Positions 1 to 20,345 of a DNA stretch of 34,955 nt are shown piece after piece. This stretch comes from an uncultured Clostridia bacterium (GTDB taxonomy: Bacteria > Bacillota > Clostridia > Oscillospirales > Acutalibacteraceae). Within the stretch, counting starts at the first letter, position 1. Each line of letters starts with the position of its first letter. A program made the translations under genes and the position numbers. Where the stretch lies: positions 1 to 34,955 of the forward strand of contig CAMKSB010000004.1 in NCBI GenBank assembly GCA_946415335.1. The letters run 5' to 3'. The notes under the pieces are model-generated. The model worked only from the letters and a program-made list of their open reading frames with translations, was not told the origin of the DNA and made no database searches.

Positions 1-3000
1 AGCGAATCGTCGTCCATCATCAGATCGTGCTCATGCGGCGTGTGGATCACCTGCATTTTCTCGATATCGCAGTAATTCTCATAGTTGCCGGCTTCGTATT
101 TCATCATGTCGTTCCAGTATTTGAGATTGTCGCCCGTCACGCCGGCAGGCACCTGATCGGGCTTGAAATAGGTGACGCTGCCGTGATACTTAGAAGGGAT
201 ATGGTTGTACAGATCCTCCGACACATGCGCGGCGTTGTTGACCATCGCTTCCAGCATACCGCTTTCGCGCAGCTCGGCAAAGAGGGGACAGGTCTCAAAG
301 TAATCGGCGTTGATCTCGGACAGCATGCCCTTTGACAGCTCGCGGAGACGCTCATTGCCCAGAGCGTGCGAATCCAGCATAAAGAGATGCGTCACTTTTT
401 CGCCTGCCTGCTCCAGCTGACAAGCCATCTCATGCGCCACGACGCCGCCGTAGCACCATCCGCCGAGGATATAGGGGCCTTGCGGCTGATATTCCTTCAA
501 AATGCGGATATAATTTGCCGCGATATTCTTGATACCATAAACCGCCGTGTCCGGATGATAGAGGTTATACGGCTCGATGACGGCAAAGGACACCCTGTCG
601 CCGATCCTGTCCGCCAGACGGTAGTAGGCGGAGCTGCCGGTGTTGCCGGTGTGGACAAAGACGACCTTGGGACCGTCGTTTTCCGAGTAGACGCAGATGT
701 CCGGCGGTATATCCTTCGTCAGTCCGAGCGGCTTTTTGGCAGCGGTAGGCTTGGGCTTTTCCTCTTCGCCGTCCATTTCACGGGCAAATTTCAGGACTTC
801 TACCCATCCGCTGATGGAGGTGTCGTCTGGGTAATCCTTTTCCAGCACTTCCATCATCCGTGTAACATAGTTTCGGATCTGACTGTCGCTGACCGCGATG
901 GAATGCGTCATAAAGTACAGATAACTCATGCCCTCGGCATGGGTGCAGACGACCTTCATCACGCTGTCATATTGCAAGTCGATCGGCGTGTTCAGCGTTC
1001 TCTGACGGAGCGCCTCGAGTTCCTCGATATCGCTTGTATCCGCTTCTACCATTTCCAACGGGATCTTGCGGTCGGTGATGACCTGCTGGATGACGCTGAC
1101 GTTGTGGAATACGATCGCCGAGCGCAGTTCCTCGTTTTCCGTTGCGACGATATCCAGCGCACGGCGCAGGTGCTGTTCGGAAACCACGCTGTCCACCTGA
1201 ATGAAGAAGGCGGATTTGAAGATGGTGGATTCGGGATAGATGATCTGCTCGAACAGCATTTCGTCCTGTGTGGAAGAGATCGGCAGCGTCTTTTCGATAT
1301 GCTCGCCGCGTGAGGCGAAGTCCTCGCGGATCGCTTCATATTCTTCCCGCGTCCAAAGCTGCTCGTAGGCGACGTCCGCCATTTCGGCGATCTTGCGCAG
1401 GGTGTTATACTGCAAGATCTGCGCGCCGCTGATCTTGATACCCTGCTCACGCAGCGCCACGGCGTATTCCATGGAGTTGAGCGAGGTGCCGCCGAGCTCG
1501 GTGAATTTGTCGTCGGGGGCGATCAGGTAGTCGGTACCCAGAACGTCCGCGGCGGTGATCAATACGCGCGTGACGACCTCGCTGTCGAGCACGCCGATCG
1601 TGCGGCGTTCGCGCTTGGGCTGCGGCAGCTCGTTGCGCATGACCTTGCCGTTGAGGTTGCGAGGCAGCGCGTCCATGCGCACCCATACGTCGGGGATCAT
1701 ATATTCCGCCAGATAACCGGCGATCTCCGCCATCATTTCTTTTTTGTCCAGTTCCTTCGCCGCCTCATAATAGCAGGAAAGGTGATCGGTGCCGTTGATG
1801 GTTTTGATGACGACCACGAGCTGTCCGACGTCGGTTCTGCCGGTTCTTGTCAGGGCGTTGGCGATCTGCGCTTCGACCTCGCCGGTCTCGATGCGGAAGC
1901 CGCGCAGCTTGACCATGTTATCGGTTCTGCCGAGAATGTCGATGTCGCCGTCAGGCGCGCAAACCGCGCGGTCGCCGGTGTGGAACCAGCGCCTGCCGTC
2001 TTTTTCGAACCATTTTTCGGCGCTCTGCTCCGGCAGGTGGTAGTAGCCGCTCGACATATAGTCGTTGGAAACGAGCAGCTCGCCGGGCGTGCCGGCTTCA
2101 ACGGGGTTCAGATCGTCGTCGACCACCATCGCCGCCGTGTTGCGGTAGGGCTTGCCGACAAAGATACGCTCCTCGTCGCCCTTGATCTTCTTGGAGATGA
2201 TCGCGCTCGTCTCGGTGCTGCCGTACATGTTGATGAGGATGTTGCCGGGAACCAGCGCCTGGAAATTGCGCAGCTTTTCTCCGGCGGCAAAGACAAACAC
2301 GCCGCTCAGGTCGTAGTCCTCTGCCATGATCGCGGCAAGACTGGACGGCATAAAAATATGCGTGACATGCGCTTCCCTGATGAACTGATAGAGATACCCC
2401 ATATCCCTTCGCGCGATCTTCGGCGCGATGCAGACGGTGCCGCCGTAATGGAGCGGCCCGATCAAAAACACCATCGTCGCCACAAAGGGAAAGCTCGACA
2501 TCACGCCGGAACGCGTGTGTTCGCTGAGCACCACGTCGTCGTGGACCTTGATAAAGTCCGCGATCTGCAGCAGGAAACGGTGGGAGTGCAGCACGCCCTT
2601 GGGCTTTCCGGTGGTGCCGGAGGTGTACAGCAGCATGGCAGGGGAGTCCCCTGAGAGCGAATCGCAAAAGACAGCGTTTTGCCCGTTTTCTGATATTTCA
2701 TCCAGAAAAACGACCTTTTCCGCCGCAACCTGCAGCGGCTTTTCCTGCCAGAAACCGCGGACGGTCAGCACAGCCGCCGCCTGCGCGTCCTCTAAAATAT
2801 ATTCCAGCCGCTTTTCGGGATACGCCTCGTCAAGCGGAATGAAAATGCAGCCTGTCTGCCATGCCGACAGAGCGCCGAGCATGATCTCCTTGACATAGGG
2901 AACATACACCGCGACCGCGTCGCCGGCCTTCACGCCGAGTGAAGCAAGCGCGCAGGTGACAGCTTTGCTCTTTTGCGCCAGTTCCCGGTAAGTCATTTCT

Positions 3001-3077
3001 CCGTATTCATCCGAAAGCGCCGTTTTGTCAGGAAACGCCGCGGCATGTTCATGGATCAGTTCATGGATCAGCTTCAT
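1..3077 (-). CDS. NRPS-like protein (A - PCP - partial C - TE), 3' end beyond window
   Basis: Open frame from ATG at 3077 to window edge (absent from ORF track because no stop lies in window). Starts MKLIHELIHEHAAAFPDKTAL; A-domain motifs LLYTSGTTGKPKG, NMYGSTETSA, HTGDRA, GRTDNMVKLRGFRIE, NGKVMRNEL; carrier motif LGGTSL (Ser codon about 1482-1484); condensation-like start LPISSTQDEMLFEQ; TE part PKVVFVHTGNTGSS...GGWCYGG...LFMLDSHA...HEHDLM. SD-like GAGG upstream of the ATG. Confidence 0.9.
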   Translation of the reverse strand, partial: MKLIHELIHEHAAAFPDKTALSDEYGEMTYRELAQKSKAVTCALASLGVKAGDAVAVYVPYVKEIMLGALSAWQTGCIFIPLDEAYPEKRLEYILEDAQAAAVLTVRGFWQEKPLQVAAEKVVFLDEISENGQNAVFCDSLSGDSPAMLLYTSGTTGKPKGVLHSHRFLLQIADFIKVHDDVVLSEHTRSGVMSSFPFVATMVFLIGPLHYGGTVCIAPKIARRDMGYLYQFIREAHVTHIFMPSSLAAIMAEDYDLSGVFVFAAGEKLRNFQALVPGNILINMYGSTETSAIISKKIKGDEERIFVGKPYRNTAAMVVDDDLNPVEAGTPGELLVSNDYMSSGYYHLPEQSAEKWFEKDGRRWFHTGDRAVCAPDGDIDILGRTDNMVKLRGFRIETGEVEAQIANALTRTGRTDVGQLVVVIKTINGTDHLSCYYEAAKELDKKEMMAEIAGYLAEYMIPDVWVRMDALPRNLNGKVMRNELPQPKRERRTIGVLDSEVVTRVLITAADVLGTDYLIAPDDKFTELGGTSLNSMEYAVALREQGIKISGAQILQYNTLRKIAEMADVAYEQLWTREEYEAIREDFASRGEHIEKTLPISSTQDEMLFEQIIYPESTIFKSAFFIQVDSVVSEQHLRRALDIVATENEELRSAIVFHNVSVIQQVITDRKIPLEMVEADTSDIEELEALRQRTLNTPIDLQYDSVMKVVCTHAEGMSYLYFMTHSIAVSDSQIRNYVTRMMEVLEKDYPDDTSISGWVEVLKFAREMDGEEEKPKPTAAKKPLGLTKDIPPDICVYSENDGPKVVFVHTGNTGSSAYYRLADRIGDRVSFAVIEPYNLYHPDTAVYGIKNIAANYIRILKEYQPQGPYILGGWCYGGVVAHEMACQLEQAGEKVTHLFMLDSHALGNERLRELSKGMLSEINADYFETCPLFAELRESGMLEAMVNNAAHVSEDLYNHIPSKYHGSVTYFKPDQVPAGVTGDNLKYWNDMMKYEAGNYENYCDIEKMQVIHTPHEHDLMMDDDS

Positions 3078-3114
3078 TGTTTTGTCCTCGTTCACAGAAA
3101 AATATTATATATTG

Positions 3115-3205: not shown

Positions 3206-3254
3206 AAAAAAAGCGCATCTCATGCGTCCGATGAACAGGGGAGGTTTTTCTGAC

Positions 3255-4190
3255 ATGGGTTTTGCAGAAAACATTGTATTGTCATTTATCAAACGAAATT
3301 TGAACAAGGCGCTCAAGCTGGATGAACTGCCGGTGATCTCGTCGGAGGGCTTGCGGGAGCACCGCGACATCCCTTACCGCAACCGTGCCGACAAGGAGCT
3401 GCTGATGGATATTTTTGAGCCGGTCGTTCCCAAGGGAACCGAACTGCCGGTCATTGTCAACATTCACGGCGGCGGCTTGATCGACGGCAACAAGAACATC
3501 TCCGCAGGCTTCTGCCGTCAGCTGGCAAAGAGAGGCTATCTGGTGTTTTCTCTGGAATACCGTCTGATCCCCGACGTCCGCGTTTACGAGCAGTTTGACG
3601 ACGTATGCGCCGGAATGGACTGCGTGGGCAGAAAACTTGTGGAATTCGACGTGGACATCACCAGGCTCTACATGGTCGCCGAAAGTGCCGGCGCGTATCT
3701 TGCCACCTATGTTGCCGCCATGAGGAATTCCAAGGCGCTTCAGGACGCGATCGGTTATCCGCCGACGAGGATGCAGTTCAAGGCGATCGGACTCATCAGC
3801 GGCATGTTCTACACCAACAGAAACGACGCGCTCGGATGGGTATTGTCGCGTTCCATCTACGGCAAAGACGAGCGCAACAAGAGCATGGAGCAGTACACCA
3901 ATCCGGAACACCCCGAGATCATCTACCATATCCCGCCGTGTTACCTGATCACCAGCAAGGAGGATATGCTGGAACGGTACACGCTGGATTTTGCCGGCGA
4001 GCTCGGCAACAAGGGCGTGGAGCACTTCCTGCGTCACATGGGCAGCGATAAAAAGCTGATCCACGCGTTCCCCGTCATACGCCCGGATTACCCCGAAAGC
4101 GAGAGGGTGATCGACGAGATCGTCACCTGGTTCCGCTTTCACGAGAAGAGCACCGACAGCATGAAGAATTTCTTCAAAACAAGACAATAA
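3255..4190 (+). CDS. alpha/beta hydrolase (esterase/lipase-like)
   Basis: MGFAENIVLSFIKRN...; HGGG oxyanion motif (NIHGGGLIDG) and GxSxG-like AESAGA; SD AGGGGAGG just upstream of ATG 3255 (internal to the listed longer ORF). Confidence 0.8.
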   Translation: MGFAENIVLSFIKRNLNKALKLDELPVISSEGLREHRDIPYRNRADKELLMDIFEPVVPKGTELPVIVNIHGGGLIDGNKNISAGFCRQLAKRGYLVFSLEYRLIPDVRVYEQFDDVCAGMDCVGRKLVEFDVDITRLYMVAESAGAYLATYVAAMRNSKALQDAIGYPPTRMQFKAIGLISGMFYTNRNDALGWVLSRSIYGKDERNKSMEQYTNPEHPEIIYHIPPCYLITSKEDMLERYTLDFAGELGNKGVEHFLRHMGSDKKLIHAFPVIRPDYPESERVIDEIVTWFRFHEKSTDSMKNFFKTRQ

Positions 4191-12797: not shown

Positions 12798-13394
12798 ATG
12801 AAACAAATCGTCAAAGCCGCCTGTGTGGCATTTATCCTGACCGTCATCTTCTCGCTGATACCTTTTCACGCGCAGTGTGAACGCATATCCGGCGATACCT
12901 TCCGGCTCCATATCCTCGCCAATTCCGACAGCGAGGCCGACCAGGCGTTGAAGCTGAAAGTCCGCGACCGTATTTTGTCCGAAATGCAGCCGCTGTTGTC
13001 CTCAGCGCCCGACAAGCAAACGGCAGAAGCTGTCGTCAGCGGCAATCTGCAACATTTCGCCGATATCGCCTGTGACGAGGTGCTGCAAAACGGCTGTGAT
13101 TACCCGGTAACCGCCGAGATCACCAACATGTATTTCAACACGCGCCGTTACGACAGCTACACCCTTCCGGCAGGCATGTATGACGCGCTGCGCATCCGCA
13201 TCGGCAAGGCGGAGGGACACAACTGGTGGTGCGTTCTCTATCCGGGAATCTGCCTTTCCGCCGCCGAAGACCGCGAAAGGCAGGCGAGAGAGAGCTTTGA
13301 CAGCGACGAATACGAAATCGTCCGCGGCGAACCCTATTCCTACCGCTTCAAGGCGGTGGAGTGGATAGAATATCTGCAAAATCTATTCGGATGA
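12798..13394 (+). CDS. spoIIR: Stage II sporulation protein R
   Basis: N-terminal TM/signal then FRLHILANSDSEADQALKLKVRDRIL, hallmark of SpoIIR; WWCVLYPGICL. Confidence 0.92.
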   Translation: MKQIVKAACVAFILTVIFSLIPFHAQCERISGDTFRLHILANSDSEADQALKLKVRDRILSEMQPLLSSAPDKQTAEAVVSGNLQHFADIACDEVLQNGCDYPVTAEITNMYFNTRRYDSYTLPAGMYDALRIRIGKAEGHNWWCVLYPGICLSAAEDRERQARESFDSDEYEIVRGEPYSYRFKAVEWIEYLQNLFG

Positions 13395-13447
13395 GACATG
13401 ATTACCCCATCTCATCCGATATCATAACCATAGAAAGAGGTGAGCGT

Positions 13448-16400
13448 ATGCTGCAATTCATACTCGGACGAACCGGCACCGGCAAAACGCGGTCGGTGTA
13501 CGCGCAGATCCGTGAAGCGATACAAAACGGCGCGGAAAACATCATCATGCTCATACCCGACCAGGTGAGCCTCGAAACCGAAAAAGCGGTGCTCGAATTG
13601 CTCGGAGCGCCCGACAAGCAAAAGGTCAACGTGTTCGGCTTCGGCAAGCTGTGCCGATACGTCTTTGAACAGACGCAAAATCCGCCGGGAGCCGTCATTG
13701 ACAACGGCACGCGCGCGGTCGTCATGAGCCGAACCCTTGACGATCTGGACGGCAAGCTGCGGATGCTTAATCCGCGCAATAACCGCAGCCTGACGCGGCT
13801 TATGCTCAGCACCATGTTGGACTGCAAAAAGGGCAGAGTCAGCACCGATCAGCTTCGTGACGCCGCCAACGCCGGAGAACTCGGCGATGATTCGCTCAAA
13901 AACAAGCTGCTTGATACCGCCGATATCCTCGACGTGTTCTACGGCAGACTTGCGCAGACGCACGTCGATCCGCTGGACGATATCGACCGTGCCGGAGAAC
14001 TTTTGCTGACGCATCCGGAGGTGTTTCGCGGCTTCACCGTGTTCATCGACGGCTACAGCGGCTTCAACGCCCAGCAGCTTCGGCTGGTGGAGTACCTGAT
14101 CGCAGCTTGCGACCGCGTGACGGTCGCTCTGACGCTTGATCCGGAATATACCCGGGACGAGGGCGTTTTTTCCGCTTCCTGCAAGACCTACGCGCGCTTG
14201 AAGCAGTACGCGCATTCACAGAATATCACTGTCAAACCGTCGATCCGGCTGACAGAGAACCGCCGTTTTCACAATCAGGAACTCACAGCACTGGAAGCAG
14301 CCGTTTTCCGAGGCGCCCAGTCGCCGGAGCCCTATGCCGATACGCCGGAGCACGTTTTTCTCTATCCGGCGCAGGATACATATGACGAATGCGAATTCGC
14401 GGCGCGTGAGATCCAAAAGCTGGTGATACAGCATGACTACCGCTATGCCGAGATCGCCGTGATTGCCCATGACACGTCCGAATACAGCGGTGTGATCCAC
14501 TCGGTATTCGAAAAATACCGCATTCCCTGCTTCCTCGACGAGCACAAGGAGCTCGACGTCAAGCCGATCGCGCGCGTCGTCAACGCGGTCTTTCGCATGG
14601 TGCTCGAAAACTTCGAGCGCAGCGATTTTCTTCTGCTGCTCAAAAGCGGTCTCCTGCCGTATACGGAAAGCGAGATCCGCGATTTTGAGGACTACATATT
14701 TGTTTGGAACATCGACAACAACGGATTCAAAAAGCCCTTTACTCAGAATTCCGCCGGCTTCGGAACGCCTTCGGAAACGGATGTGCGGCGCGATAATGCC
14801 GAAAAGATACGCAGGGAGGTCGTAACAGCCCTGCTTGCCTTCCGCGAGGATTCAAAGGACAGCACCGCCGGAAGGATAACCGAAAATCTGTATACCATGC
14901 TGACCGAAAGTCTCCGCGTCCGCGACGGCATGGACAAGCTCTGCCGTCGTCTTGAAAACGGCGAGGCGGAGGCGCTTTCCGACGAGCAGGTACGCATCTG
15001 GGAGCTGTTTTCGCGTTCGCTCGACCGTCTGGTGAGCGTGATCGGAGAGGAAGTGCTTCCTCTGCGGCGTTATTATGAGCTGCTCGCCATGCAGCTGAGC
15101 GCGATCGAGTTCGCCGAGATACCGCGCTACCTCGATTCCGTGATCGTCACCAACGCCCAGCGCGTCCGCGATCCGCATTACAGGGCGGTGTTCCTGATCG
15201 GCTGTACCGACGGCGTTTTCCCGGCAAATCCCACAGGCGGCGGACTCTTTTCCGAATACGAGCTGCAGCTGCTTCTCGACAGGGATCTGCAGCTCAGCGA
15301 CAGTCCGACCGATTTCGCCGACCTCGAAACCTTCATGGCGTACAACAGCCTTTCCGCTGCGTCCGATCTGCTCTATATGAGCTATCCCAAGCTCGAGATC
15401 GCCACCGGCGGCATGCTCAAGCCGTCCGTTCTGGTGACGGAGCTGTGCCGCATCTTTCCGAAGCTGCAGCCCACCGAATTTACCGATACACAGCTCTATA
15501 CGGATATGCTCGTCAACCGCGAGACGGCGTTTGAAGCCTACGCGCTGTCCTTACAGGACGGCAGCGCCGACCTGTCCTCTCTGCGCCCCTTCTTTGCAGC
15601 GGATGACGACTACAAAGAACGCCTTGCCGCCGTTGAAAGCGCCGTCGAACGCGCTCCCTTTGCGATGAAAGACACGGCGCATCCCGAGCAGCTGTTCGGC
15701 AAGGTGCTCGTCAATTCCGCTTCCAAGTTGCAGACCTTCTACCGGTGTCCGTTCTGCTATTTCTGCGCCTACGGACTGCGCATTGACGAAAAACGCCGCG
15801 CCGAGATCGATCCCATTGAGCGCGGCAATCTGGTACACAGCATTCTCGAGCAGTTCTTCAAGACCTACCCCGACAAGGCGGCATACACCACCCTGTCGGA
15901 GCAGGAGATCCATGATTTTGTCGAAAAATCCATCCGCAATTATCTCGACGCCTTCATGGGAGGCGGCAGCGACCAGCCCGGTTCGTTTGGATTCCAGCTC
16001 GAAATGCTCCTCGACAAGACTGTGCGCGTGATACGTTTTATCGTGGAAGAACTTGAAAACAGCGGTTACGACGTCGAGGACGCCGAGCTTGATTTTCCGC
16101 AGGACATGCGCGGCTACTCCATCATCCTGCCGGACGGTCATGAGATCGAGATCCGCGGAAAGGTCGACCGCGTCGACATTTCCGAGCAGAAGGACGGCCG
16201 CTACCTGCGCATCATCGACTATAAATCCAAATCCAAGGCGAAGGGCTTCAATTTCGCCGAGGTCTACTACGGACTTGATCTGCAGATGCTCATCTATCTG
16301 ATCGCGATCATCCGCAACGGCGCGGCGCGTTACGGCGATTTCCAGCCGGGAGGCGTGCTCTATTCCAACGTCCTTTTCAACGGCTTTTCCGAATCCGACA

Positions 16401-16783
16401 GCCGCGAAAAGACCACCGACCGTCTTGTGCATGATGCGTTCAAGCTGCGCGGACTCTATCTTGACAAAAAAGCCTTTACGATCGCCGACAAGGAGAGTCT
16501 TAGCACGCAGTCGAGCACCAAGGTCACGCCCGACGAGCTTGAAATGGTATTCAAAAAGGTCGATCAGCTCATCAGCCGGATGGGGGAGAACCTCTACGGC
16601 GGCGTGATACCGGCGCAGCCATTTAGCAGCGGCGCAGACAAGGCGTGCGATCAATGCGCCTACTTGGACGTTTGTGCCTATCGCCGGAGCGAACCGCGCG
16701 TGAATCAGTTTGCCGGCAGGACAAAAGGCAAGCGCGAAAAAATACTCAGCCAAATCGAGGAAGAGGTGAATGAAGATGCCTGA
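13448..16783 (+). CDS. addB: AddAB helicase-nuclease subunit AddB
   Basis: MLQFILGRTGTGKTRSVYAQI; LIPDQVSLETE; RecB-like nuclease motif IRGKVDRVDI...LRIIDYKS; Fe-S cysteines RCPFCYFC and CDQCAYLDVC. SD AGAGGTGAG. Confidence 0.95.
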   Translation: MLQFILGRTGTGKTRSVYAQIREAIQNGAENIIMLIPDQVSLETEKAVLELLGAPDKQKVNVFGFGKLCRYVFEQTQNPPGAVIDNGTRAVVMSRTLDDLDGKLRMLNPRNNRSLTRLMLSTMLDCKKGRVSTDQLRDAANAGELGDDSLKNKLLDTADILDVFYGRLAQTHVDPLDDIDRAGELLLTHPEVFRGFTVFIDGYSGFNAQQLRLVEYLIAACDRVTVALTLDPEYTRDEGVFSASCKTYARLKQYAHSQNITVKPSIRLTENRRFHNQELTALEAAVFRGAQSPEPYADTPEHVFLYPAQDTYDECEFAAREIQKLVIQHDYRYAEIAVIAHDTSEYSGVIHSVFEKYRIPCFLDEHKELDVKPIARVVNAVFRMVLENFERSDFLLLLKSGLLPYTESEIRDFEDYIFVWNIDNNGFKKPFTQNSAGFGTPSETDVRRDNAEKIRREVVTALLAFREDSKDSTAGRITENLYTMLTESLRVRDGMDKLCRRLENGEAEALSDEQVRIWELFSRSLDRLVSVIGEEVLPLRRYYELLAMQLSAIEFAEIPRYLDSVIVTNAQRVRDPHYRAVFLIGCTDGVFPANPTGGGLFSEYELQLLLDRDLQLSDSPTDFADLETFMAYNSLSAASDLLYMSYPKLEIATGGMLKPSVLVTELCRIFPKLQPTEFTDTQLYTDMLVNRETAFEAYALSLQDGSADLSSLRPFFAADDDYKERLAAVESAVERAPFAMKDTAHPEQLFGKVLVNSASKLQTFYRCPFCYFCAYGLRIDEKRRAEIDPIERGNLVHSILEQFFKTYPDKAAYTTLSEQEIHDFVEKSIRNYLDAFMGGGSDQPGSFGFQLEMLLDKTVRVIRFIVEELENSGYDVEDAELDFPQDMRGYSIILPDGHEIEIRGKVDRVDISEQKDGRYLRIIDYKSKSKAKGFNFAEVYYGLDLQMLIYLIAIIRNGAARYGDFQPGGVLYSNVLFNGFSESDSREKTTDRLVHDAFKLRGLYLDKKAFTIADKESLSTQSSTKVTPDELEMVFKKVDQLISRMGENLYGGVIPAQPFSSGADKACDQCAYLDVCAYRRSEPRVNQFAGRTKGKREKILSQIEEEVNEDA

Positions 16784-19700
16784 AAATGCAGTCAGATGGA
16801 CAGACGAACAGCAGGACGCGATCGATTCGCGCGGAACGGTGCTGGTGTCGGCAGCGGCGGGCTCCGGCAAAACCGCCGTGCTTGCGCAGCACGTCATCAC
16901 CATGATCACCGGCGATGAGCCCATCGACGTCGACAAGCTGCTGGTGCTCACGTTTACACGCGACGCGGCTGCGGAGATGAAAAAGCGCATCCGCGACCGT
17001 CTTGAAGAGTTGTTGGCGCGCGATCCGTCCGACGCGGCGCTGCTGCGGCAGAAGCAGCGGCTCTACAGCGCCCATATCTCGACGACCGACAGCTTTTGTT
17101 CTACGCTTGTCAAGGAGAATTTCTCCGCGCTCGCTGTGTCGCCTGATTTTCGCATTGCTTCCGACGCGGAGATCCAGACCGTCGCGGTCAAGGCGCTCGA
17201 CAACGCGATCGAGCCGTTTTACGCCGCCAATTCACCGGACTTCCGTGCCTTGCTTCGTGCTTTATCCTCCAACAACACCGATAACGGACTGCGCAAGGCG
17301 GTGATGGACGTCCATCAGTTCTTGCAGAATCAGCCCTTCCGCGAGGAATGGCTGGACGCGCTTGTGAGCAGCTATACAGAGAAGCCCTTCTATGAAACAG
17401 ATTGGGCGAGCGAGATAGAGCAGGAACTGCCTGCCACCGCCGACATGCTGACGGATAAGATAAAGCGCTGCATGGAAGAGACACTTCCGCAGCTTCCGCA
17501 AAAATATGCCGACCTCTTTGAACCCTATTTTACTTCCGATCTGAATGCTCTCCAAACCTTGCGCGAAGCGCTCCGTTCCGACGGCTTCAAGGGGTGGGTG
17601 TATGGAGTTAAAAAGCTGTTTGACGAGGATTATCAGCCCTTGCCGGAGCTTGACAAGTCAGCGAAAAAGGGAAAGAGCACCCAGTTCAATAAGGCATACG
17701 CCTGCCGCGAGCAGGTCAGGGCGGCAGTGCTCGAAAACAAGAACGCCGAGCAGGAACAGCGGGAGATCGGCAGGCTGATGATCACCTTCTGCGAGCTGAT
17801 ACGCGCCTACGACCGGGAACTGGAAAGCGTCAAGGCAAGGCGCAATATCCGCACATTTTCCGACGTCAGCCTGCTGGCAGTCCGTCTGCTGGCTCAGCCG
17901 TGCTCAGAGCAGGAAGCCGTCTATCACACCGGTGGTTTTGCCTACCGTCCGACGGCGCTGGCGCAGGAGATATCCAAACGCTTTCACCAGGTCATCCTCG
18001 ACGAATACCAGGACGTGAACCTCATCCAAGAGGTGCTCTACAACTGCGTTTCCGACGAGGGCAAGAACCTGTTCATGGTCGGCGACGTCAAGCAGAGCAT
18101 CTACGGCTTCCGACAGTCAAAGGCAAAGCTCTTTTCCGACCGTCAAAAAGCCTATGCTCCCTTTGACCGTCACGATCCGCAGTATCCGGCGACCATTTTT
18201 CTCAACGTCAACTTCCGCAGCCGCCGCGAGGTCTGCGACACGGTCAACTATATCTTTGCTCAGATCATGTCCTCCTACTGTCGGGAGGAATACCTCAATC
18301 CCGGAGCAACTTATCCGGAGAACCCTCAGTGCGACACGGAGATCGCCCTGATCGAAAAAAATAACTTCTCCGATGAGCTCTCCGTCGCGGCGCTGGAAGC
18401 CAAGTATGTCGCCGGCAGGATCTTGAAGTTGATGCAGTCCGGCTTTATGGTGAGCGACAAAGACGGTCAGCGGCCGCTGCGCTTCGGCGATGTCGCCGTA
18501 CTCATGCGCGCCAAGGCTGCCTCCAAGAGCGACGAGGATTCCAAGCAGAAGGGCAGCGCGGAATTTGTCCGTCAGCTTTCACATTATGGCATTCCGGCGT
18601 ACTGCGAGGAGAGCGAAAACTTCTTTGACGCCAAGGAAATTCGCCTGCTGCTCAATATCCTGCGCGTGATCGACGACCCGGCGAACGATATCGCCCTGTT
18701 GTCCGTGCTGATGAGTCCGCTGTTCGGCTTCACGCCCGACGATCTGACCGTCATGCGCATGAGCGACAGAAAAGCCGGACTCTACCGTACTCTCTTTATC
18801 TGCCGCAGCGACGACAGCCCGACCGGCAGAAAATGCGCGGACTTTCTCAACCGTCTGACGCGCCTGCGCGATCTCGCGGCGGTCAGCACCGTGGACGAAC
18901 TGCTCGAGATCATCTACCAGCGCACGGCGATCGTCGCCGTGACAGCCGCCGTCAATGAGGGCGCTTCACCGACCAAAAACCTCGATCTCATGCGCGTCTA
19001 TGCCCGTCAGTTCTGCACGAACGGCTACAAAACGCTCTCGGACTTCAATTCCTACATACAGCGCGTCATCGCCAGCGAAAAGCCGCTTCCGGCGGCTTCG
19101 GGCGTGAAGGCGGATACCGCCGACTGCGTGCACGTTATGAGCATCCACAAATCCAAGGGACTGGAATTTCCCGTCTGCTTCCTTGTGGATACCGCACGCA
19201 AATTCAACGAATCCGAATTCCACAGCGCGGTGCTCTCGGACAGCGAAGCCTTTGTCGGGTTCCGCCGTTTCCAAAATTACCGCAGCGTGTCCAGCTTGGC
19301 GTACCGCGCGATCAAAAGCAAGCATAAGCGCGAGAATCTGGATGAGGAAATGCGCATGCTTTACGTTGCGCTGACGAGGGCGAGAGAAAAGCTGATCCTT
19401 GTCGGCACCGACGAGGGGCTTGACGACAAGGTGCTCCCGGCAGCCGCTCAACCGGAATCTCCATATGAAGCCAAGCGTCTGCTGGACTGGATCCTGATGA
19501 CGGCGGCAAAGCACCCGTCCACCCGGGCAATCTTTGATCCGGAAGCGGAGCCGGAGGACACCGATAACCGCTGGATCCTGCGCAAGATCCTGACGGATGA
19601 CGAGTTGTTTTCAGCCGAGGTCACGGAACAGAAGCAGGATGATCGGCAAAACGCGGCCGCACAGCCGGACTACCTTTCGATTCTCCGGCAAAACCTCGCC

Positions 19701-20345
19701 TTTGACTATCCCGACAAGGACATCATCGGCGTTCCGCAGAAGGTCAGTCCGTCGCAGGTCTCCCACAGCGAGAGCCGCCGGTATACCGCCAAAGCACTGG
19801 TCGTACCCGGCTTTGCGCGCGAGAACACCAAGGCAGGCGCGACAGAGATCGGTACTGCGCATCATGAATTCCTGCACTACTGCGATTTTGCCGCCGCCGG
19901 CGACGATTTGGACGCGGAGATCAGCCGCCTGTTGAATATCGGCAAGCTGTCGCAGCGGCAGTGCGACTGCCTTGACCGCGACAAGCTCGCGGCGATTCTG
20001 AGCCATCCGCTCTTTGACCGCGTTCTGCGCGTGCCAAAGGACAAGGTTTGGCGCGAAAAGCAGTTCACCGTGTTTGTCCATCCGTCCTTCACCATGCCGG
20101 AGGGCATGACCTTCCGTCCGGACAGAAAGCAGATCGTTGACGGCGAACTCGACCTTTGCTTTGCCGAGGATGACGGACTGGTGATCGTCGACTACAAGAC
20201 CGACCGCGTCAGCGAGGTCGAAGAGCTCCGCCGTCACAAGCCGCAGCTCGATCTCTACGAACACGCCATGAAGCAGGTGATGAACCTGCCCGTCAAGGAA
20301 AAGATCGTCTTTTCCATCACGCTCAACGATTATATCACCGTCTGA
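16770..20345 (+). CDS. addA: AddAB helicase-nuclease subunit AddA
   Basis: WTDEQQDAIDSRGTVLVSAAAGSGKTAVL; ILDEYQDVN; VGDVKQSIYGFR; MSIHKSKGLEFPVCF; LYVALTRAREKL; nuclease motif IVDGELDLCF...VIVDYKTD. Confidence 0.96.
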   Translation: MKMPENAVRWTDEQQDAIDSRGTVLVSAAAGSGKTAVLAQHVITMITGDEPIDVDKLLVLTFTRDAAAEMKKRIRDRLEELLARDPSDAALLRQKQRLYSAHISTTDSFCSTLVKENFSALAVSPDFRIASDAEIQTVAVKALDNAIEPFYAANSPDFRALLRALSSNNTDNGLRKAVMDVHQFLQNQPFREEWLDALVSSYTEKPFYETDWASEIEQELPATADMLTDKIKRCMEETLPQLPQKYADLFEPYFTSDLNALQTLREALRSDGFKGWVYGVKKLFDEDYQPLPELDKSAKKGKSTQFNKAYACREQVRAAVLENKNAEQEQREIGRLMITFCELIRAYDRELESVKARRNIRTFSDVSLLAVRLLAQPCSEQEAVYHTGGFAYRPTALAQEISKRFHQVILDEYQDVNLIQEVLYNCVSDEGKNLFMVGDVKQSIYGFRQSKAKLFSDRQKAYAPFDRHDPQYPATIFLNVNFRSRREVCDTVNYIFAQIMSSYCREEYLNPGATYPENPQCDTEIALIEKNNFSDELSVAALEAKYVAGRILKLMQSGFMVSDKDGQRPLRFGDVAVLMRAKAASKSDEDSKQKGSAEFVRQLSHYGIPAYCEESENFFDAKEIRLLLNILRVIDDPANDIALLSVLMSPLFGFTPDDLTVMRMSDRKAGLYRTLFICRSDDSPTGRKCADFLNRLTRLRDLAAVSTVDELLEIIYQRTAIVAVTAAVNEGASPTKNLDLMRVYARQFCTNGYKTLSDFNSYIQRVIASEKPLPAASGVKADTADCVHVMSIHKSKGLEFPVCFLVDTARKFNESEFHSAVLSDSEAFVGFRRFQNYRSVSSLAYRAIKSKHKRENLDEEMRMLYVALTRAREKLILVGTDEGLDDKVLPAAAQPESPYEAKRLLDWILMTAAKHPSTRAIFDPEAEPEDTDNRWILRKILTDDELFSAEVTEQKQDDRQNAAAQPDYLSILRQNLAFDYPDKDIIGVPQKVSPSQVSHSESRRYTAKALVVPGFARENTKAGATEIGTAHHEFLHYCDFAAAGDDLDAEISRLLNIGKLSQRQCDCLDRDKLAAILSHPLFDRVLRVPKDKVWREKQFTVFVHPSFTMPEGMTFRPDRKQIVDGELDLCFAEDDGLVIVDYKTDRVSEVEELRRHKPQLDLYEHAMKQVMNLPVKEKIVFSITLNDYITV

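Follow-up and report, generated by a model that had tools for sequence, protein, structure and literature searches.

Why would a nonribosomal peptide synthetase (NRPS) hold half of a condensation (C) domain between its carrier (T) domain and its thioesterase (TE)? The question is raised by a minus-strand gene at one end of a 34,955-nucleotide stretch of DNA (hereafter the window) from a gut or rumen bacterium, whose genome is represented by a fragmented MAG that is 76% complete. A preliminary description, made from the sequence alone, had read the encoded protein as an adenylation (A) domain, a T domain, the N-terminal half of a C domain and a TE, and had considered the half domain as a degenerate remnant, a docking or acceptor element, or a minimal acyl-transfer domain.

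Domain organisation of the A-T-half C-TE protein

The gene occupies window positions 3-3095 when read from a GTG codon and 3-3077 when read from an ATG; the ATG at 3077 (MKLIHEL) is the start shared with the homologues and used by those that are complete. The contig end cuts the gene, and the last 15 codons and stop are supplied by contig C9 of the same genome, which overlaps the window contig exactly over 55 bp (window 1-55; L021, the end of contig C9 of assembly G000). Pfam matches on the protein fall in the order AMP-binding (15-352), PP-binding (513-572), Condensation (601-733) and Thioesterase (from 810). At the nucleotide level, always on the minus strand, the A domain (PF00501) spans 1611-3077, with the lysine of motif A10 at 1644-1646, and the T domain (PF00550) spans 1371-1577, with the phosphopantetheine serine of LGGTSL at 1482-1484. 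The half C domain, delimited by Pfam, AlphaFold, Foldseek and alignment with complete C domains, lies at 783-1298 (residues 600-771), and its C1-like motif LPISSTQDEM runs down from 1286. It is followed by a disordered, fast-changing linker (702-782, pLDDT below 50) and by the TE (PF00975), which fills 3-701 and, as the contig overlap shows, has its last 15 codons on contig C9. The order A-T-half C-TE given in the preliminary description was borne out by Pfam, AlphaFold and Foldseek.

The Pfam Condensation match is partial, covering only profile positions 2-140 of 456 (PF00668; 38.6 bits, E 7e-10, cut-off 30.6 bits), and as the TE follows the half domain after only some 27 disordered residues, there is no room for a C-lobe of about 270 residues. 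AlphaFold predicted the region from the end of T to the start of TE as a well-defined single lobe (pLDDT near 90 across its first 200 residues) that gives way to the linker. Foldseek matched this model to the N-lobes of C domains and to nothing more, including those of SrfA-C, RzmA, bacitracin synthetase and PvdL (2.0-2.5 Å over about 153-183 columns). No complete C domain was found in the protein, either by HMM or by structure. Set against a catalytic C domain (PF00668), the half domain shares the N-lobe of the CAT-like fold, the C1-like motif region and the position after a carrier, but it lacks the C-lobe that completes the usual 450 or so residues, its HHxxxDG motif is incomplete, and it is followed by a TE instead of an A domain. 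The full-length model reached a pTM of 0.32, which is unusable for domain arrangement or contacts, and no interface was predicted.

The TE itself has the features of a type I NRPS thioesterase, with the Pfam match accompanied by a nucleophile-Asp-His triad (Cys881-Asp908-His1023, GTG numbering) that is invariant in the alignment. The cysteine lies within GGWCYGG (codon 453-455), the aspartate is encoded at 372-374 and the histidine at 27-29. AB3403, the closest solved relative of this TE by sequence, has the domain order C-A-T-TE and no half C domain. Its TE (PDB 4zxh) likewise uses a cysteine nucleophile, with the aspartate placed after strand beta-6 (PMC11298585).

The HHxxxDG motif is incomplete in every aligned member

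The catalytic motif of the half domain was located by MAFFT alignment with 13 complete C domains from the same and related genomes. Where HHxxxDG is expected the window protein reads THSIAVSD, and the one histidine kept (H725, ATG numbering; codon 903-905) aligned with the first position of the motif, correcting the earlier assignment of this residue to the second. The first histidine is retained in eight of the nine aligned members and is replaced by asparagine in L011. The second, catalytic position is occupied by serine in six members, tyrosine in two and histidine in one, and the aspartate is retained only in L017. None of the nine has a complete HHxxxDG. The role of the second histidine is debated, and it is not absolutely required in all C domains (PMC11546977). 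Without a whole motif, and with the C-lobe that completes the active-site cleft missing, condensation or acyl transfer is unlikely, and the half domain is probably catalytically dead.

The half domain is conserved and constrained

A single scan of GTDB representative genomes identified nine homologous loci, all in Clostridia MAGs and several of them from the rumen, with 59-85% identity. The half C domain is carried by all nine, so that the architecture is conserved as well as predicted. Eight loci are collinear with the window gene over the available sequence, among them L017, whose sequence starts inside the T domain. The ninth homologue, L016, is broken or mis-assembled but its half domain is intact; at this locus an open frame (L016:2479-9859) fuses the neighbouring NRPS and the half C gene out of register. 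No homologue was seen to carry a complete C domain. Intermediates, having either a full C domain or none, were sought with whole-protein, half C plus TE, and half C profiles in 392 genomes of the class, 398 of the family (including five of the same genus) and 396 of the order; at the thresholds used, these searches matched no half C domain other than that of the window. The class search recovered A-domain and A-T relatives, whose matches ended by profile position 663 of 1040. Judged from these searches, the A-T-half C-TE family is rare and clade-restricted.

Selection was measured within the close trio of the window, L009 and L015. Omega was 0.11-0.15 for the half domain, 0.13-0.14 for the A domain, 0.07-0.09 for the TE and 0.29-0.73 for the linker. 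The half domain is also of uniform length and contains a segment, QDEMLFEQ, that is invariant in nine members. The omega values place it under purifying selection. In a tree the half C sequences formed one clade (support 100/100) with short internal branches on a stem of 3.55 changes per site, a shape consistent with rapid change at first and constraint afterwards. The length of this stem means that the parent C domain cannot be named.

These data bear on the possibility that the half domain is an evolutionary scar, produced by an internal deletion in an A-T-C-...-TE ancestor that left the N-lobe as a spacer without a function of its own. The drifted catalytic motif and the very long stem would both be expected of such a scar, and partial C domains elsewhere have been termed remnants (PMC4041764, PMC7253712). 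A sequence without function would not, however, be expected to keep an omega close to that of the A domain, a uniform length, an invariant QDEMLFEQ and a well-predicted fold. While we regard the scar as a serious rival, we consider it unlikely, and omega and the uniform length speak against the simpler idea of a remnant still in decay.

A separate NRPS adjoins the gene in most homologous loci

In eight of the nine homologous loci the half C gene directly adjoins a separate NRPS. This partner lies immediately upstream in L010, L011, L012, L013 and L014, and also in L016 next to the broken copy; the two genes are convergent in L009, and in L017 the half C gene comes first. The complete partners (L025-L028) are organised as C-A-T-C-A-T-R, with one extra module in L028, and each begins with a C domain whose HHxxxDG is intact, so that an outside donor would be needed. 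The L017 partner also begins with a C domain. At L015 there is no adjacent partner; an unlinked NRPS elsewhere in that genome begins with a C domain that groups, in the tree, with the one located after the loading A-T in the NRPS on contig C28 of the window genome. A small gene encoding a STAS domain lies ahead of the partner in L026 (by Pfam) and in L027 and L032 (by eye); in L030 it directly precedes the half C gene.

Gut peptide aldehyde synthetases of the ruminopeptin type have the architecture C-A-T-C-A-T-R, and we know of no A-T-half C-TE protein in their clusters. The partner NRPSs share this domain order and differ in having this second protein attached. The ruminopeptin type is named in PMC12327764.

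A C domain split in trans, with the missing half on the partner, was also considered, as the L016 partner appeared to have the C-terminal part of a C domain at its start. This explanation was dropped, because each of the complete partners L025, L026 and L027 opens with a full C domain whose HHxxxDG is intact, and the L016 locus is either broken or mis-assembled.

In the 76% complete assembly of the window's genome no partner NRPS was found. About 6 kb from the join, contig C9 carries an A-T-C NRPS (L021:8792-11791), beside which lie a small STAS-like gene and possible anti-sigma/phosphatase regulators, recognised by eye. A match to PF01648 (ACPS/PPTase) is absent from the same assembly, although NRPS genes need such an enzyme; its gene probably lies in the missing part of the genome. 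Next to the NRPS gene in the window is a divergent alpha/beta hydrolase gene (3240-4187, plus strand; BD-FAE/Abhydrolase_3), which was not seen next to the homologues examined. Further along, an ordinary AddB/AddA-type nuclease-helicase pair lies at 13361-20345 (plus strand), and the other genes look like housekeeping, sugar transferase/O-antigen ligase and oligopeptide ABC transport functions.

The adenylation domain lacks Asp235

Alignment gave the specificity code of the A domain as VAVFFAMAIK. Its first position, equivalent to GrsA Asp235, is valine in the window protein (codon 2481-2483, minus strand); among the eight members covering this position seven have valine and one isoleucine. 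In the partner NRPSs, every A domain has aspartate here. Asp235 binds the alpha-amine of an amino acid substrate (PMC11355689), and an aliphatic residue in its place is typical of A domains that activate keto acids (PMC10949194; PMC10316625). Given the valine or isoleucine, the substrate that this A domain loads is probably not an amino acid.

Asp235 is likewise missing from the first A domain of each of the other three NRPSs in the window genome, so that loading with non-amino acyl caps seems to be widespread there. Two large NRPS genes of this kind lie on contigs C2 (L022:2529-11498) and C28 (L023:1245-7196); by motif they resemble A-T-C-A-T-C-A-T-R (L022) and A-T-C-A-T-R (L023).

A candidate trans-acting loading module

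We infer a model in which the A domain would activate a carboxylate that bears no alpha-amine, whether an alpha-keto, an aryl or a fatty acid, and load it onto T, which would hand the acyl group in trans to the N-terminal C domain of the partner NRPS. The partner would extend it, typically through C-A-T-C-A-T-R, and its reductase would release an N-capped peptide aldehyde. The half domain would be a catalytically dead C N-lobe with a structural role, acting as spacer or adaptor either between T and TE or toward the partner, or both, and the cysteine-dependent TE may clear wrong or stalled acyl groups from T. We hold this reading tentatively, giving it somewhat less than an even chance. The 76% complete window genome has no visible partner and the L015 partner is not adjacent. 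In most loci the putative loading gene is placed after the partner, it is unusual for a loading module to carry a TE, the first C domain of the partner could instead be a starter C domain using acyl-CoA, and the interface prediction gave none.

The second serious rival, which we judge slightly less probable than the scar, is a self-sufficient A-T-TE type synthetase, in which the A domain would activate an alpha-keto acid, T and TE would couple two units of it to a quinone- or furanone-like product, as in fungal quinone synthetases, and the half domain would be a mere spacer. A-T-TE quinone synthetases dimerise aromatic alpha-keto acids. Valine at the first code position, as found here, is described as a mark of the alpha-keto acid A domains of these enzymes (PMC10316625), and neither the window nor L015 shows an adjacent partner. 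The described quinone synthetases, in contrast, lack any C-derived domain, whereas the half domain is present in the window and all nine loci and is constrained. The window protein further differs from them (PMC10316625) in its cysteine nucleophile and bacterial host, and its homologues are linked to another NRPS in eight of nine loci.

Much less probable again is a minimal acyl-transfer or condensation domain, acting alone or as a CAT-like oligomer. Its fold is indeed one CAT-like lobe and one motif histidine persists in eight of nine members, but the second histidine and the aspartate are each lost in eight, the first histidine is lost in L011, the motif is incomplete throughout and the entire C-lobe is absent. 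An assembly error or local deletion in this MAG, which the truncated gene and the fragmented, 76% complete assembly might suggest, is refuted, because the same half domain occurs in nine other assemblies at 59-85% identity and lies about 780 bp from the contig end.

Of the functions first proposed for the half domain, a docking or structural element is thus the one left plausible, through the linked NRPS. Rather than reflecting a sequencing error, the half domain has probably been put to a new structural or docking use. A further-reaching reading is that a C N-lobe has been turned into an autonomous NRPS domain that is non-catalytic and of a type so far unnamed, and that would recruit or orient carrier proteins where a stand-alone loading module meets a separate assembly line. 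This seems doubtful. A functional parallel may be the TomB adaptor of the tomaymycin NRPS, a PCP-like domain that lacks the canonical loading motif and brings the carrier of a separate initiation module to a C domain (PMC11186497). The TomB adaptor has a PCP fold and is on the acceptor protein, whereas the half domain is a C N-lobe on the donor, and the two are not homologous.

A literature search of incomplete coverage, which included few subscription journals, turned up no account of a conserved C N-lobe placed between T and TE, and the only half, partial, incomplete or degenerate C domains encountered were those of HcpA from Aspergillus, between two A domains (PMC4041764), and ThdA from Thermoactinomyces, at the N-terminus (PMC7253712). 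Both are partial and presumably inactive, and like the half domain they lie within NRPSs, but not between T and TE.

As a rule, partial C domains are set aside as inactive remnants or as errors of annotation. The half domain described here is kept in ten species, is predicted to fold by itself, has no working motif and is constrained, and it sits between a carrier and a thioesterase, where a C domain is unexpected. If it is an adaptor, it would offer NRPS engineers a small C-derived domain, and what the N-lobe of a C domain can do alone becomes directly testable.
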